Source: an uncultured Agathobacter sp. (GTDB taxonomy: Bacteria; Bacillota; Clostridia; Lachnospirales; Lachnospiraceae). Taken from it: DNA of 43,829 nt. The translations under genes were made by a program, and so were the position numbers. The DNA lies in NCBI GenBank assembly GCA_934316545.1, contig CAKRDT010000015.1, forward strand, positions 1-43,829. Direction: 5' to 3'. The notes beneath the pieces are model-generated. The model was not told the DNA's origin, searched no databases, and worked only from the letters and a program-made list of their open reading frames with translations. Of this stretch, positions 4,171 to 37,865 are shown piece by piece (position 1 is the stretch's first letter; every line of letters begins with the position of its first letter).

Positions 4171-4617
4171 TCAGATAGGTTTTCTAAAACGGACGATATT
4201 GGATTCATAAGATAAGATTCGAAAATTAGCAGCAACTTACTTAAAGCCGACGGACTTTGAACGATTTCAATGACCGGATGTTTTTTCAGAGTTACGGCAT
4301 CGAACCATACGATTATTTTGTTCAGGAAAATTTGCAAGTCAACTTCACCAGCGATTTTGGATAGTTGGCTGAGATAGGCGCAATTAGCCATAGGTCATGG
4401 AACGGTGAAGCAGTTGCAAATTTGTCCTGCAAAAATAAGTATGGCTCCGATACCTGTAGCATGAAAAGGTTGGTCATTGAAATCATCCAAAGTCCTGAAC
4501 ATTTAGAATACTACTGCTAATTTTCTTTTTTTATATTTTGGCATCCGGTATCTGTGTATTAAAAAATGCTATCTGATGCACAACAAAAATTTGCCTCATA
4601 GTAAATAAGGAAAAATG

Positions 4618-24243: not shown

Positions 24244-24275
24244 AATCTACAAAGAAAATCGTATATCATAGATTT

Positions 24276-24460
24276 GATAGCTCTCCAACTCACCAGGTAA
24301 CCGTGCAGCACAGTTACAGTTGACAGTCATGCGGCTCTTAACCTCATGCCCAGAAAACGGTTCGCAGCTTCCGTCCTCTTCGGCGTTCATCCCTTTCTTT
24401 CTGCATTCCCCTGTGCCTGCCACATCCTGCAGAATACTCTTGATTCACGCGACCTCTATC
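24276..24460 (-). promoter_or_regulatory. lysine riboswitch (L box) aptamer
   Basis: Read on the minus strand, the segment opens with GATAGAGGTCGCG and ATCAAGAGTA. It continues with GAAAGAAAGGGATGAACGCCGAAGAGG in pieces typical of the L box, then CTGGGCATGAGGTT, GCATGACTGTCAACT, and closes with GTTGGAGAGCTATC. The first and last GATAG/CTATC pair as P1. These conserved blocks and their order match the lysine riboswitch. With the terminator downstream, lysine binding should stop transcription before dapA. Confidence 0.95.
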
Positions 24461-24470
24461 ACATGAGTTA

Positions 24471-33454: not shown

Positions 33455-33709
33455 TTATACGCTGATCTTGTACATATTCTTTCGGCTGATCGCGCCGATT
33501 TCCTCCAGCGTATTGATCATTCGGTACACCGTAGCGGTTCCGATCGTCGGATCCTTCTTCGTTGCCCGATAATAGATCTCTTTACAGCTGCTGCACTCAT
33601 CCTCAAGGATGATGTCAAGAAGCATGAGTCGTTGCTTGGTAATACGACAGCCATCTTCTTTCAGCCGATTTATGATGATCTGTTTCTGTTCCAGTTGTTC
33701 TGCTGACAT
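33455..33709 (-). CDS. mini Fur-like winged-helix protein lacking the metal/dimerisation domain
   Basis: At 84 residues this is about half a normal Fur protein. Residues 8-80 match the Fur N-terminal winged helix: GCRITKQRLMLLDIILEDECSSCKEIYYRATKKDPTIGTATVYRMINTLEEIGAI. The recognition helix carries the T-A-TVYR motif of Fur. The protein then stops after NMYKISV, so the C-terminal metal-binding and dimerisation domain is missing. The frame is intact, with AAGGAGG 6 nt before the ATG and a proper terminator after it, so it does not look like decay. It directly follows feoB (27 bp), the place and size of FeoC in enterobacteria, but it is Fur-like in sequence. Its target is unknown. Confidence 0.8.
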   Translation of the reverse strand: MSAEQLEQKQIIINRLKEDGCRITKQRLMLLDIILEDECSSCKEIYYRATKKDPTIGTATVYRMINTLEEIGAISRKNMYKISV

Positions 33710-33736: not shown

Positions 33737-35893
33737 TTATTTTGCTTTTGCCATCTTAATATTTACATTAAGTGTCTCGCTCTCCTTGTATGGACGGAAA
33801 AGCATATAGATGAATCCAATGATGATTGCTATCGCAACGATGGTCCAGAAACCGAATGTTGCTGCGCCTGTGAACAGTCCACCGATCTGGAAGATACATA
33901 AGCCTACTAAGTAAGCCAGACCACACTGGTATCCGATTGCGAACCAGAACCACTTCGCACTGTTCATCTCACGCTTGATTGCTCCCATTGCTGCGAAGCA
34001 AGGTGCACAGAGAAGGTTGAATACCAGGTAAGAGTAAGCTGCGATTGCTGACATATTTGCTGCCAGAGTTCCCCAGATTTCTTCGCCGGTCTCTCCGACT
34101 TCACCAAAGTGGAACAGGATACCGAATGTACCTACTACGTTCTCTTTTGCAACTAAACCTGTAACAGCTGCCACTGCTGACTTCCAGTCTCCCCATCCGA
34201 GTGGAATGAAGATCCATGAAATGCATTTTCCGATAGCAGCAAGGATACTGTAATCGATTTCCTCCTCGGAAAGCATACGGAATGTTCCGTCTACAACTCC
34301 GAAGTAAGTTGTGAACCATACAACGATTGTTGATAAAAGGATGATGGTTCCTGCCTTCTTGATGAAGGACCATCCACGCTCCCACATGCTGCGGAGAACG
34401 CTTCCTACGGTTGGAAGATGGTATGCCGGAAGCTCCATTACGAATGGTGCCGGATCTCCTGAGAACATCTTTGTCTTCTTTAAGATAATACCGGAACAGA
34501 TGATTGCCGCGATACCAACAAAGTAAGCGGACCATGCAACCCATCCTGCATTTCCGAAGAATGCACCGGCGATCAATCCGATGATCGGGATCTTAGCTCC
34601 ACATGGGATAAAGGTCGTTGTCATGATTGTCATACGGCGGTCACGCTCGTTCTCGATCGTACGGCTCGCCATAATTCCCGGAACACCACATCCTGTACCG
34701 ATCAGCATAGGAATGAATGATTTTCCTGATAAACCGAACTTACGGAAAATACGGTCCATGATGAAGGCAACTCGTGCCATGTATCCACATCCCTCTAAGA
34801 AAGCGAGGAAGATGAATAATACAAGCATCTGCGGTACGAAACCAAGTACGGCACCGACACCGGAGATAATACCATCAACGATCAGTCCTGTTAACCAGTC
34901 TGCACATCCGATATTCTCAAAGAATGACTGTGCACCAGGGATGATCCACTCTCCGAAGAGAGTATCGTTCGTCCAGTCTGTTAAGAAACCACCCACGGTC
35001 GTGACGGAAACATAATATACAATAAACATAACAAGAGCAAAGATCGGCAGTGCCAAGATTCGGTTTGTAACGATACGGTCAATCTTGTCGGATACCGTTA
35101 ACTTCTCGCTGCCTGCAGCTTTCTGGACGCATTTTCCGATGATGGATGTAATGTATGTATAACGCTCGTTTGTGATGATACTCTCGGTATCGTCATCAAA
35201 CTTATCCTCTAAAGCCTTCACTTCTGCGCTGACATCAGGAATTGTTGTAAGCTGCTCAGAGATCTTAGAATCTTTCTCAAGAAGCTTGATCGCAAAGAAT
35301 CGCTTCTGCGTCTCAGGAACGGAACTTCCAAGCTTATCCTCAACGATGGCGATCGTATCTTCCACATCCTGAGCAAAAGCGTGAACACGGTCAACGGCCT
35401 TCTTCTGCTGAGCGGCTGCTACTGCCTTCTCAGCTGCCTTCTTGACACCGGTTCCCTTTAATGCGGAAATCTCAACGACTTCGCATCCTAATGCATCGCC
35501 CAAAGCTTTAATGTTGATCTTGTCACCATTTTTTGCGACAAGATCCATCATATTGACAGCCATAACAACCGGGATACCAAGCTCGATGATCTGGGTTGAC
35601 AGATATAAGTTACGCTCGATATTGGTTCCGTCGATGATGTTGATGATTGCATCCGGTTTCTCACCGATGAGATAATTTCTTGCTACGACTTCCTCCAATG
35701 TGTATGGAGATAAAGAATAGATACCCGGAAGGTCCATGATCACAACATCTTTGTGACCCTTGAGCTTTCCTTCCTTCTTCTCGACTGTTACACCTGGCCA
35801 GTTACCAACAAACTGGTTTGCACCGGTCAAGGCATTAAAAAGCGTTGTTTTACCGCAGTTTGGGTTACCTGCGAGTGCAATTTTAATTGCCAT
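33737..35893 (-). CDS. feoB: ferrous iron transporter FeoB
   Basis: FeoB imports Fe2+ across the cytoplasmic membrane. The 718-residue protein has an N-terminal G domain: G1 GNPNCGKTT (about 8-16), switch FVGNWPGVTVE, G3 MDLPGIYSL, G4 NMMD and a G5-like SALKG. A helical GDI-like linker follows (about 160-260). The membrane core has two Gate repeats; features include GCGVPGIMASRTI and SFIPMLIGTG. The C-terminus is short and lacks an added winged helix. The start is placed at the second in-frame ATG (35893), which has AAGGAGA at proper spacing; the first is too close. It sits 35 bp after feoA. Confidence 0.97.
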   Translation of the reverse strand: MAIKIALAGNPNCGKTTLFNALTGANQFVGNWPGVTVEKKEGKLKGHKDVVIMDLPGIYSLSPYTLEEVVARNYLIGEKPDAIINIIDGTNIERNLYLSTQIIELGIPVVMAVNMMDLVAKNGDKINIKALGDALGCEVVEISALKGTGVKKAAEKAVAAAQQKKAVDRVHAFAQDVEDTIAIVEDKLGSSVPETQKRFFAIKLLEKDSKISEQLTTIPDVSAEVKALEDKFDDDTESIITNERYTYITSIIGKCVQKAAGSEKLTVSDKIDRIVTNRILALPIFALVMFIVYYVSVTTVGGFLTDWTNDTLFGEWIIPGAQSFFENIGCADWLTGLIVDGIISGVGAVLGFVPQMLVLFIFLAFLEGCGYMARVAFIMDRIFRKFGLSGKSFIPMLIGTGCGVPGIMASRTIENERDRRMTIMTTTFIPCGAKIPIIGLIAGAFFGNAGWVAWSAYFVGIAAIICSGIILKKTKMFSGDPAPFVMELPAYHLPTVGSVLRSMWERGWSFIKKAGTIILLSTIVVWFTTYFGVVDGTFRMLSEEEIDYSILAAIGKCISWIFIPLGWGDWKSAVAAVTGLVAKENVVGTFGILFHFGEVGETGEEIWGTLAANMSAIAAYSYLVFNLLCAPCFAAMGAIKREMNSAKWFWFAIGYQCGLAYLVGLCIFQIGGLFTGAATFGFWTIVAIAIIIGFIYMLFRPYKESETLNVNIKMAKAK

Positions 35894-35928
35894 TGTCATT
35901 CTCCTTTATATGTTATTCTCTGGTTCAA

Positions 35929-36147
35929 CTACTGTACCTCGATCATTTCTGCGTCCGCCTTACGGAGCGAAAGCTCGTACCCTCTTACGGTTACTTCGAC
36001 CGGATCGCCAAGTGGTGCAACCTTGCGGATGTATACTTCCACGCCCTTGGTAATACCCATGTCCATGATTCTTCTCTTGACAGCACCCTCACCTGTGAGT
36101 TTTTTCACCGTGACGGTCTGACCAATTTTGGCTTCTCTTAAAGTCAT
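35929..36147 (-). CDS. feoA: FeoA, SH3-like partner of FeoB (copy next to feoB)
   Basis: The 72-residue cytosolic FeoA domain protein has MTLREAKIGQTVTVKKLTGEGAVKRRIMDMGITKGVEVYIRKVAPLGDPVEVTVRGYELSLRKADAEMI in family order: a beta-rich SH3-like fold with the conserved R--DMG-TKG turn and the P-GDP-EV-VRGYELSLR strand pair. FeoA proteins assist FeoB-dependent uptake. GAGGAG lies 7 nt before the ATG. It is the second of two feoA genes in the operon. Confidence 0.93.
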   Translation of the reverse strand: MTLREAKIGQTVTVKKLTGEGAVKRRIMDMGITKGVEVYIRKVAPLGDPVEVTVRGYELSLRKADAEMIEVQ

Positions 36148-36265: not shown

Positions 36266-36478
36266 TTAGATAAAAATATGATTTGCCATCTCTCGCCCAA
36301 TCGCAATACGAGCGCCCTTCACATTCACAATCATATTTCCGGCAGCTTCTGATACGACAGTAACAAGCCCACCTGTCACGAATCCAAGTTCCTCCAAGTG
36401 TCTCTTCACTTCATCCTTGCCTCCGATTCGTACAATTTTTACTTCCTGTCCCTTTGGTGACATTGTAAGCGGCATCAT
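36266..36478 (-). CDS. feoA: FeoA-like protein (promoter-proximal copy)
   Basis: The 70-residue protein is a second FeoA domain, diverged from its neighbour: KGQEVKIVRIGGKDEVKRHLEELGFVTGGLVTVVSEAAGNMIVNVKGARIAIGREMANHIFI. It keeps the LEELGFV-GG turn and the N-IVNVKGARIA-GR strand but lacks the GDP segment. Two different FeoA paralogues before feoB are common in Clostridia and may have different roles. AGAAGG lies 6 nt before the ATG. A 118-bp gap separates it from the next feoA. Its promoter lies within the operator array. Confidence 0.9.
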   Translation of the reverse strand: MMPLTMSPKGQEVKIVRIGGKDEVKRHLEELGFVTGGLVTVVSEAAGNMIVNVKGARIAIGREMANHIFI

Positions 36479-36520
36479 ATTGACCTTCTTTCTGATAAAG
36501 TTTCTCGGTTCTTACGTTCG

Positions 36521-36767
36521 TTAGTATACGCTAACCAGCATTAGTTGTCAACCACTTATTTATATTTTTGCTAACCATGATTAGTGTTATCGTCTAAAAC
36601 TTCTATATCTCTAATCCATATCAGTTACACATACACGTTCTTATCAAATACTAACTTTTATTAGTTTTATGTTTTGCATTTTTGTGCCATGTAACTTCAA
36701 TTAGTCATTGATGTTTTTCTATTTATCCTGCTAAGCTGCGTAAGCGTTTACTAATTTGCACTTATTA
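36521..36767. promoter_or_regulatory. 40-bp-phased array of CTAA-N6-TTAG operator-like boxes
   Basis: CTAA (or a one-base variant) occurs at 36531, 36571, 36611, 36651, 36691 (GTAA) and 36731. TTAG or a near match stands exactly 10 bp later at 36541, 36581, 36621 (TCAG), 36661, 36701 and 36741 (TAAG). The six inverted repeats are therefore spaced exactly 40 bp apart while the DNA between them is unrelated. An extra TTAG at 36521 pairs with CTAA 36531 as TTAG-N6-CTAA. The first boxes lie inside the feoA promoter. The half-sites resemble the DtxR/IdeR box. The array spans the divergent feoA/efflux intergenic region. Confidence 0.75.
36523..36551 (-). promoter_or_regulatory. promoter of feoA-feoA-feoB-fur-like operon
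   Basis: On the minus strand a perfect TTGACA (36551-36546), a 17-bp spacer and TATACT (36528-36523). CTAA/TTAG half-sites occupy the spacer and overlap the -10, so a bound repressor would block RNA polymerase. Confidence 0.8.
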
Positions 36768-36787
36768 TGGTGCAAGGTGCAATTTTA

Positions 36788-36817
36788 TTGCTTTTTTTGC
36801 ATAGAATGGTGTATGAT
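36788..36817 (+). promoter_or_regulatory. candidate promoter of the cation-efflux gene
   Basis: TTGCTT (36788-36793), an 18-bp spacer and TATGAT (36812-36817), just beyond the operator array. The 5' UTR would be about 155 nt. Confidence 0.4.
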
Positions 36818-36835
36818 ATATGGCATGAATAAAAT

Positions 36836-36869
36836 ACATATTCCGATAAAAATGGTTGCTGGAATATGT
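36836..36869 (+). repeat. leader hairpin 1 of the cation-efflux gene
   Basis: ACATATTCC (36836-36844) pairs with GGAATATGT (36861-36869), a perfect 9-bp stem with a 16-nt loop. Confidence 0.6.
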
Positions 36870-36886
36870 ACAAAAATGTTGCACAG

Positions 36887-36924
36887 ATGACAGTTCAACC
36901 AAAACGTTTTGGTCGAACTGTCAT
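36887..36924 (+). repeat. 38-bp palindrome in the leader of the cation-efflux gene
   Basis: ATGACAGTTC...ACCAAAA CG TTTTGGT...GAACTGTCAT is an almost perfect palindrome centred on ACGT, broken by one mismatched pair. It lies 57 bp before the start codon. There is no T-run after it, so it is either a dyad operator or a stable leader hairpin. Confidence 0.75.
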
Positions 36925-36980
36925 TTCATAAATGCAGCAAAACAGATTTCGCTTATGTTCAAGCAAAAGGGGGAACTATT

Positions 36981-37865
36981 ATGGAACAGGATTTTCAGAA
37001 GACAGCCAACCGGGTAACCTCGGTCAGCATCATTGGTAATCTCGTTTTATCAGCTTTTAAATTTGTCGCCGGAGTTGTTGCAAATTCCGGTGCCATGATC
37101 TCAGATGCCGTACACTCCGCTTCGGATGTATTCAGCAGCATCGTCGTCATCATCGGTATTCATGTATCAAGCAAAGAATCCGATAAGGAACATCCATACG
37201 GTCATGAACGTCTGGAATGTGTTGCCGCCATCATCCTGGCAACGATCCTCTGTATCACCGGTCTATCGATTGGTATCTCTGCAGTACGGACCATTCTTGC
37301 CGGAGACTATAAGCACCTTGCGGTACCCGGAATTCTTGCACTTGTAGCCGCGCTTGTTTCGATCCTGTGCAAAGAAGCAATGTTCTGGTACACAAAAGTA
37401 AATGCTCAGAGGATTGACTCTGCAGCCTTGATGGCTGATGCATGGCATCATCGTTCGGATGCACTCTCTTCCATCGGTGCTCTCATCGGTATCGCCGGTG
37501 CAAGACTCGGTTTTCCAATCGCTGATTCCGTTGCCAGTCTTGTGATCTGCTTCTTTATTGTGAAAGCCGCATACGATATCTTCCACGATGCCGTTGACAA
37601 GATGGTTGATCACGCTTGCGATGCCAGTGACGAGGAGATGATCCGCGACTGCATTAAGGCAGAAGACGGAGTCCTTCGTGTCGATGAACTTCGCACTCGC
37701 GAATTTGGCAACAAGATCTATGTGGATGTGGAGATTGCATGCGATCCAAATTGTACCCTCACCGAAGCCCATGAGATTGCAGAACGCGTCCATGACCATA
37801 TCGAGTTCCATTTTTCCAAGGTGAAACATGTTATGGTTCATGTAAATCCTTACTCCGAAACCTAG
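36981..37865 (+). CDS. cation diffusion facilitator (CDF) family metal efflux protein
   Basis: The 294-residue CDF protein exports divalent metal in exchange for protons. Membrane helices cover about 15-205. Helix 2 carries His45-x3-Asp49 (DAVHSASD) and helix 5 the second HxxxD pair (ADAWHHRSD), an HD-HD site typical of zinc-type CDFs; Fe2+ or Mn2+ cannot be excluded. HPYGHERLE is the conserved cytosolic loop. A ferredoxin-like C-terminal domain (about 210-294) ends in KHVMVHVNP. ATG 36981 is preferred over the 24-codon-longer frame because GGGGGA lies 7 nt upstream. It is divergent from the feo operon across the shared operator array, suggesting a role in iron or metal balance. Confidence 0.92.
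   Translation: MEQDFQKTANRVTSVSIIGNLVLSAFKFVAGVVANSGAMISDAVHSASDVFSSIVVIIGIHVSSKESDKEHPYGHERLECVAAIILATILCITGLSIGISAVRTILAGDYKHLAVPGILALVAALVSILCKEAMFWYTKVNAQRIDSAALMADAWHHRSDALSSIGALIGIAGARLGFPIADSVASLVICFFIVKAAYDIFHDAVDKMVDHACDASDEEMIRDCIKAEDGVLRVDELRTREFGNKIYVDVEIACDPNCTLTEAHEIAERVHDHIEFHFSKVKHVMVHVNPYSET

Follow-up and report, generated by a model that had tools for sequence, protein, structure and literature searches.

Between the ferrous iron uptake genes and a divergent metal exporter gene, the window (the whole stretch of DNA that was analysed, 43,829 nucleotides from an uncultured Agathobacter sp.) carries six inverted repeats of the form CTAA-N6-TTAG. The locus raises three questions: whether this regularity goes beyond chance, which protein would bind the boxes, and which of the two flanking genes they would control.

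The array and its setting

The features of the locus are collected in Table 1. The intergenic region between feoA1 and the exporter gene is 502 bp long, and the analyses used 503 bp (one extra base). A preliminary description of the locus had announced six inverted repeats at 40-bp spacing; positions and spacing are correct, every step being exactly 40 bp, whereas the boxes are not all intact, three of them having one mismatch.

Table 1. Coordinates of the features of the feo/exporter locus in the window.
Feature	Position	Strand	Basis or remark
84-aa ORF after feoB, N-terminal part of Fur domain only	33455..33709	-	domain match
feoB, ferrous iron transporter	33737..35899	-	domain match
feoA2, FeoA domain	35929..36147	-	domain match
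feoA1, FeoA domain	36266..36478	-	domain match
Core operator CTTA-N6-TTAG-N6-CTAA-N6-TTAG, then reverse of -35	36511..36551	-	built into feoA promoter
feoA promoter TTGACA-17-TATACT	36551..36523	-	promoter scan; -35 36551-36546, -10 36528-36523
Box 1, CTAACCAGCATTAG, 0 mismatches	36531..36544		in -35/-10 spacer of feoA
Box 2, CTAACCATGATTAG, 0 mismatches, +40	36571..36584		one mismatch in G416
Box 3, CTAATCCATATCAG, 1 mismatch, +80	36611..36624		perfect in G416
Box 4, CTAACTTTTATTAG, 0 mismatches, +120	36651..36664		pattern scan
Box 5, GTAACTTCAATTAG, 1 mismatch, +160	36691..36704		pattern scan
Box 6, CTAAGCTGCGTAAG, 1 mismatch, +200	36731..36744		overlaps one-mismatch TTAG-N6-CTAA at 36741-36754
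Candidate exporter promoter TTGCTT-18-TATGAT	36788..36817	+	picked by eye; absent from promoter-scan output
Exporter leader, two predicted hairpins (36835-36870, 36885-36926)	36825..36980	+	structure prediction
CDF exporter gene (Cation_efflux + ZT_dimer)	36981..37865	+	domains; best solved-structure matches are FieF-type pumps

The number of boxes is unremarkable, with 11 matches at no more than one mismatch in the window against 13.1 expected. With the pattern fixed and spacings of 15-100 bp allowed, 2000 shuffled versions of the 503-bp region (dinucleotide composition kept) yielded no run longer than two. A free search over 256 tetramers, arm gaps of 0-12 and spacings of 20-60 returned the same solution as the best one (CTAA, gap 6, spacing 40, six members), and among 2164 shuffles searched in this way none reached five and one reached four. 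Because the count is near expectation and a run of six is absent from the shuffles, the array is special for its regular spacing and not for the number of its boxes. The shuffle test thus favours the array, no shuffled sequence having given comparable regularity.

The whole 40-bp unit was also considered as a tandem repeat and rejected, the similarity of the six units outside the boxes being at chance level in the window (identity 0.321 vs 0.310 expected, p = 0.30). The earlier statement that this is not a simple tandem duplication is therefore true of the present sequence. In the relative G416, which carries the same array, the corresponding value is slightly above chance (0.381 vs 0.332 expected, p = 0.012). 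The placing of all boxes on one face of the DNA did not survive: at 10.5 bp per turn 40 bp are 3.8 turns, each box is rotated by about -69 degrees relative to the one before and the six boxes circle the helix nearly once, so that face alignment is a poor explanation. Two 20-bp dimer steps account better for the spacing, and contact of neighbouring dimers would likewise be the better explanation.

The core operator is built into the feoA promoter, a strong one, with half-sites every 10 bp (CTTA at 36511, TTAG at 36521, CTAA at 36531 and TTAG at 36541). Box 1 lies inside this promoter, as had been described, and occupies its 17-bp spacer. A perfect TTAG-N6-CTAA at 36521 overlaps box 1 and sits on the -10, and a one-mismatch box, CTTA-N6-TTAG, is found at 36511. 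At the other end the last box does approach the divergent promoter, ending 43 bp before the candidate -35 (by eye).

Rfam searches returned a lysine riboswitch alone over the window (24270-24466, 103 bits), away from the array and upstream of a gene reading like dapA (by eye), and over 36480-37000 even relaxed thresholds brought up no credible match; the array is therefore no known RNA element. The hairpins of the exporter leader match no Rfam family, and 4 of their 38 predicted pairs have changed on both sides with pairing kept (window vs the G416 locus L104, two sequences). Just upstream of the exporter promoter, at 36756-36782, TTGCAC-N8-GTGCAA is followed by another GTGCAA. This element is alike in L104 and partly so in L177, the other feo/exporter locus of G416 (by eye), and is possibly the site of a second regulator.

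Conservation and occurrence in other genomes

The locus L104 of G416 shares the intergenic region, 503 bp being aligned without a gap at 80.5% identity, with all six boxes in register. Between the window and G416 half-site bases changed at 2 of 48 positions, against 54 of 159 for inner N6 and gaps (Fisher p = 7.6e-6), and the array gaps differ by 34%. When the half-site mask was slid by 1-39 bp the mean difference was 25% vs 4% in register, and only a shift of 1 equalled the latter. The 40-bp spacing is thus kept while the sequence between boxes varies, as had been predicted, in this one relative; by the comparison with a single relative, the half-sites are apparently kept by selection. The columns of low change are the four half-site bases with the next inner base (CTAAC, ATTAG) and two bases, mostly TT, 10 bp before CTAA. 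In units 2-5 the four outer bases that precede CTAA by 10 bp changed at 1 of 16 positions against 44 of 112 (p = 0.006, tested post hoc). Because these columns change little, every unit resembles a weak version of the core triple TTAG-N6-CTAA-N6-TTAG.

The locus looks mosaic, since the exporter gene differs by 3.4% and feoA1 by 11%. The exporter has 98% identical protein and 96.6% identical DNA (third positions 9.5% different), feoA1 has 88.7% identity (third positions 24% different), and the stretch with the candidate exporter promoter (36745-36819) has 5 differences in 75 positions. The divergence of the array gaps is nearer the feoA background than the exporter background. In G416 the array occurs at one place; the locus L177 is without it and has the core and one weak box at +40.

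Three adjacent 40-bp boxes (at most 3 mismatches) were found in 2 of 397 family genomes, which is read as chance because a reversed control pattern matched 5 genomes. The only match among 62 genus genomes (at most 3 mismatches) and among 391 class genomes (at most 2 mismatches) was G416 itself; this search misses weaker or shorter arrays, and the three sets partly overlap. The genus set of G416 includes G443, G447, G458 and the Roseburia sp. records G002, G003, G004 and G009 (loci L002, L003, L004 and L010), and the window, close as it is to G416, probably falls there too. The core operator, with at most 3 mismatches in 22 specified bases, was found in 48 of the 72 feo promoters scored, where about 10 of the 22 are promoter bases and the match is not all operator. 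These promoters come from the best 80 of 590 FeoB loci, 8 being left out (6 without a feoA1 found and 2 with too little upstream sequence). In the feoA upstream regions of relatives, then, the core operator is widespread, whereas the six-box array is not shared across the family, as far as the searched genomes show. The array is real, apparently selected and lineage-specific, and it apparently extends an operator common in related feo promoters.

A second box (at most 2 mismatches) stands at +40 in 6 of 67 other core promoters, one of the six being weak, whereas any other offset between 21 and 130 is occupied in 0.29 promoters on average and in 2 at most (Poisson p about 8e-5, corrected for the 110 offsets and with the promoters taken as independent). 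The set was formed from 73 core promoters (at most 3 mismatches) less the window, L104, L109 (duplicate) and L001 (short), leaving 69, and less L169 and L171, leaving 67; four entries (L131-L134) are not feo promoters but stand next to the regulator gene. A box at +20 was found in 7 of the 67, a count inflated because five of the eight +20 loci (L151, L152, L153, L158 and L169) came from a search for 20-bp pairs. Without the pair-search loci, a hand count gave +20 in 3 of 57 (L039, L045 and L061) and +40 in 5 of 57 (L011, L027, L076, L113 and L177). The 20-bp pair pattern matched 34 of 62 genus genomes with the reversed control commoner overall, and it therefore served only to fetch loci, not for counts.

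A one-mismatch box pair 40 bp apart was found in only one of the best 80 FeoB loci, the more distant feo locus L073, where it belongs to a 20-bp run: three box-like sites at 4431-4484, in 20-bp steps and with 1, 2 and 1 mismatches, stand just before feoA and after a promoter-like stretch (a single case, found afterwards). There are no boxes at the half-phase (20-bp) positions of the array in the window or in G416, the mean match of 3.5 of 8 and 3.2 of 8 being only slightly above the 2.3 and 2.4 of other offsets (sd 0.7). The sites seem to prefer 20-bp steps, and the window lineage has five further steps of 40 bp.

The candidate regulator

A homologue of a short DtxR-family regulator is divergent from feoA within 1.5 kb in 31 of the 72 loci, 26 of them with the core. 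Four genomes (G416, G443, G447 and G458) show another arrangement. Within the stretches covered there, the regulator gene has no feoA next to it; a small ORF runs divergently from it, with the core operator in the space between the two. The small ORF is FeoB_associated (PF12669) in the three tested (L179 of G416, L180 of G443 and L131 of G458), and the fourth (L132 of G447) was judged by eye. These two kinds of neighbourhood, feoA and the FeoB-associated ORF, therefore tie the regulator to the core operator and to ferrous iron uptake.

The candidate is known from the genomes of relatives. The protein of G416 has 125 aa and matches Fe_dep_repress (35.2 bits, cutoff 26) and Fe_dep_repr_C (55.0 bits, cutoff 27) of Pfam. 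Two Fe_dep_repress matches exceed the cutoff in G416, the candidate regulator with 35.6 bits and, with 26.9 bits, an ORF that is GntR-like by eye. The nearest solved structure is MntR (2h09, E 1.7e-12), but the NCBIfam cutoffs are missed for MntR (79.4 bits vs 153 and 66.5 vs 138) and for DtxR (31.1 bits vs 290), so that the metal of the regulator is not certain. In the structure-match alignment the MntR motif DVEGIEHH reads DACRIEHV. Cys at that motif position is a DtxR feature, and an iron-type metal site is possible. Of the MntR contact residues (numbering by eye), Tyr22 is replaced by Val, Glu55 and Arg58 are not kept and Arg24 and Asp27 are kept; Tyr22 is needed for the contact between MntR dimers (PMC11275975). 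The short DtxR-family regulator is the likely binder of the boxes, and indirect evidence supports the iron-linked DtxR-family regulator and multi-box operator of the preliminary description.

Mechanism, rival readings and known systems

The array is probably an extended operator of a short DtxR-family metal regulator, in which repression of feo at the core is joined to a cooperative lattice of dimers. The inferred elements, namely the binding protein, the dimer lattice, the cooperativity and the repression, would combine as follows. Metal-loaded dimers of the regulator of about 125 aa would occupy the core operator over the feoA -35 and -10, and the bound core would block transcription of feoA-feoA-feoB in iron excess; repression of feo is likely because of the position of the core on the -35 and -10. 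The outer boxes would carry the same lattice upstream, with half-sites on a 10-bp grid and dimers every 20 bp. Each 40-bp unit would represent two neighbouring dimers sharing one well-conserved CTAA/TTAG junction, their outer half-sites being weak. Contacts between dimers side by side would fill about 240 bp cooperatively and give a steep response to the metal. The length of the array may serve a steeper response, or may bring the complex closer to the exporter promoter. Least certain of all is whether this complex also turns on the divergent exporter, and such activation can be proposed only tentatively. In its fullest form the proposal is a lattice of about 240 bp, with around twelve iron-loaded DtxR-family dimers reaching from the feoA promoter towards the exporter promoter, as an all-or-none nucleoprotein switch that closes uptake and opens export, arisen in one lineage by extension of a short operator whose 20-bp grid is common to relatives. 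So complete a scheme is rather unlikely to hold in all its parts.

The exporter would matter most if the array served chiefly to activate the divergent CDF gene and the core alone repressed feo, a possible but doubtful arrangement. It has a precedent in MntR, which represses uptake and activates CDF exporters via adjoining dimers (PMC11275975, PMC9993123). The CDF gene and feoA are divergent in seven loci (the window, L104, L108, L109, L110, L113 and L177). NiCo riboswitches are found upstream of exporter homologues away from feo (L081, L082, L083, L085, L114 and L115) and are absent from the window and from seven feo-adjacent exporter loci, which suggests a change of regulator. However, the 14 exporter homologues examined without feo in the flanks covered have no TTAG-N6-CTAA at one mismatch or less within 450 bp upstream (319 bp in L114), and a single CTAA-N6-TTAG box precedes only one of them. 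In addition, L108, L109 and L110 lack the array in spite of their divergent exporter, +40 boxes are likewise present in L011, L027 and L076, loci retrieved through FeoB only, and the array stops well short of the candidate exporter -35, whereas at mneP an MntR site overlaps the -35. The joint control of uptake and efflux first proposed is thus not borne out on the efflux side, given these homologues and the 43 bp left before the -35. A Clostridiales-1 RNA (RF01699) was observed at L112:1113-1311, upstream of a CDF exporter homologue.

Boxes 2-6 could instead form no lattice at all but bind single dimers independently, acting as a sponge and so setting the level at which feo repression begins. 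The boxes are indeed separate and perfect or nearly so, and the half-phase positions are without sites, but a sponge has no need of a spacing fixed at 40 bp, the 503 bp are free of indels despite the wide divergence of the gaps, and other core promoters share the +40 preference; such titration is quite improbable. Still less credit is due to an operator for Fur/PerR or for the Fur-domain protein encoded next to feoB. The best match to a TGATAATNATTATCA-type Fur/PerR box in the intergenic region of the window has 4 of 14 mismatches, the same as in shuffles. Of 71 other core promoters, 25 do have a Fur-like box (at most 3 of 14 mismatches) downstream of the core -10, yet these boxes stand beside the CTAA/TTAG core and not in it, and the Fur reading of the array is very improbable. 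In those relatives Fur and a DtxR-type regulator may both control feo. A Fur-like box was seen in L030, L013, L036, L051, L150, L153 and others and not in the window, and Fur-like reading frames similar to the 84-aa ORF were seen upstream of feoA in L028 and L050 (by eye). Finally, a copied 40-bp unit in decay, with the boxes as functionless leftovers, would leave exact spacing and agrees with the slight excess of unit similarity in G416, but not with the chance-level similarity in the window or with half-sites conserved against a background of 34%. Duplication may explain the origin of the boxes but not their upkeep, and as a full account it is scarcely to be believed.

The reading preferred here, an extended operator of a short DtxR-family regulator, can be set beside systems already described. 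The operator consensus of DtxR/IdeR is TTAGGTTAGNCTAACCTAA, with 19 bp for two overlapping dimers. The likeness noted at the outset between the half-sites and this box holds for TTAG/CTAA and the 6-bp arm gap, whereas the 19-bp box itself is absent, the best match to the consensus having 6 of 18 mismatches and thus being no better than shuffles (mean 7.0, lowest 5). The regulator has 125 aa, compared with 226 for the DtxR chains among its structure matches. Iron-responsive control of feo is also known from Fur boxes, and the boxes here are not Fur boxes. A literature search on a DtxR-family regulator and feo in Lachnospiraceae, Roseburia or Clostridia, with most subscription journals outside its coverage, found no paper.

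The closest parallels are cooperative metalloregulators (PMC11275975). SloR of Streptococcus mutans is a metal repressor that binds three adjoining sites with positive cooperativity, and differs in that number and in its metal, manganese, from the six-box array. At mneP of Bacillus subtilis four MntR dimers bind cooperatively to four sites of 18 bp, each separated from the next by 1 bp, and activation needs this binding. The arrays of mneP and mneS resemble the present one in being adjoining palindromic sites of the DtxR superfamily upstream of a CDF exporter gene, and MntR also represses uptake genes, like the regulator proposed here. The dimer step is 19 bp at mneP against an inferred grid of 20 bp; mneP has four sites over 84 bp, with a recognisable site at every step, against six strong boxes over 214 bp, where conserved boxes recur every 40 bp only. 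The G416 regulator lacks Tyr22, a contact residue of MntR. Some 240 bp could accommodate about 12 dimers here, and the array starts inside the uptake promoter, between iron uptake and metal export genes.

Cooperative metalloregulator arrays are therefore known in shorter form, and the six-box 40-bp array is probably a longer variant with a little-studied regulator. For many Lachnospiraceae the analysis points to the likely regulator of ferrous iron uptake and to its operator. As a natural operator of unusual length and regularity, the array also lends itself to asking how many dimers, and at which spacing, a steep DtxR-family response takes.
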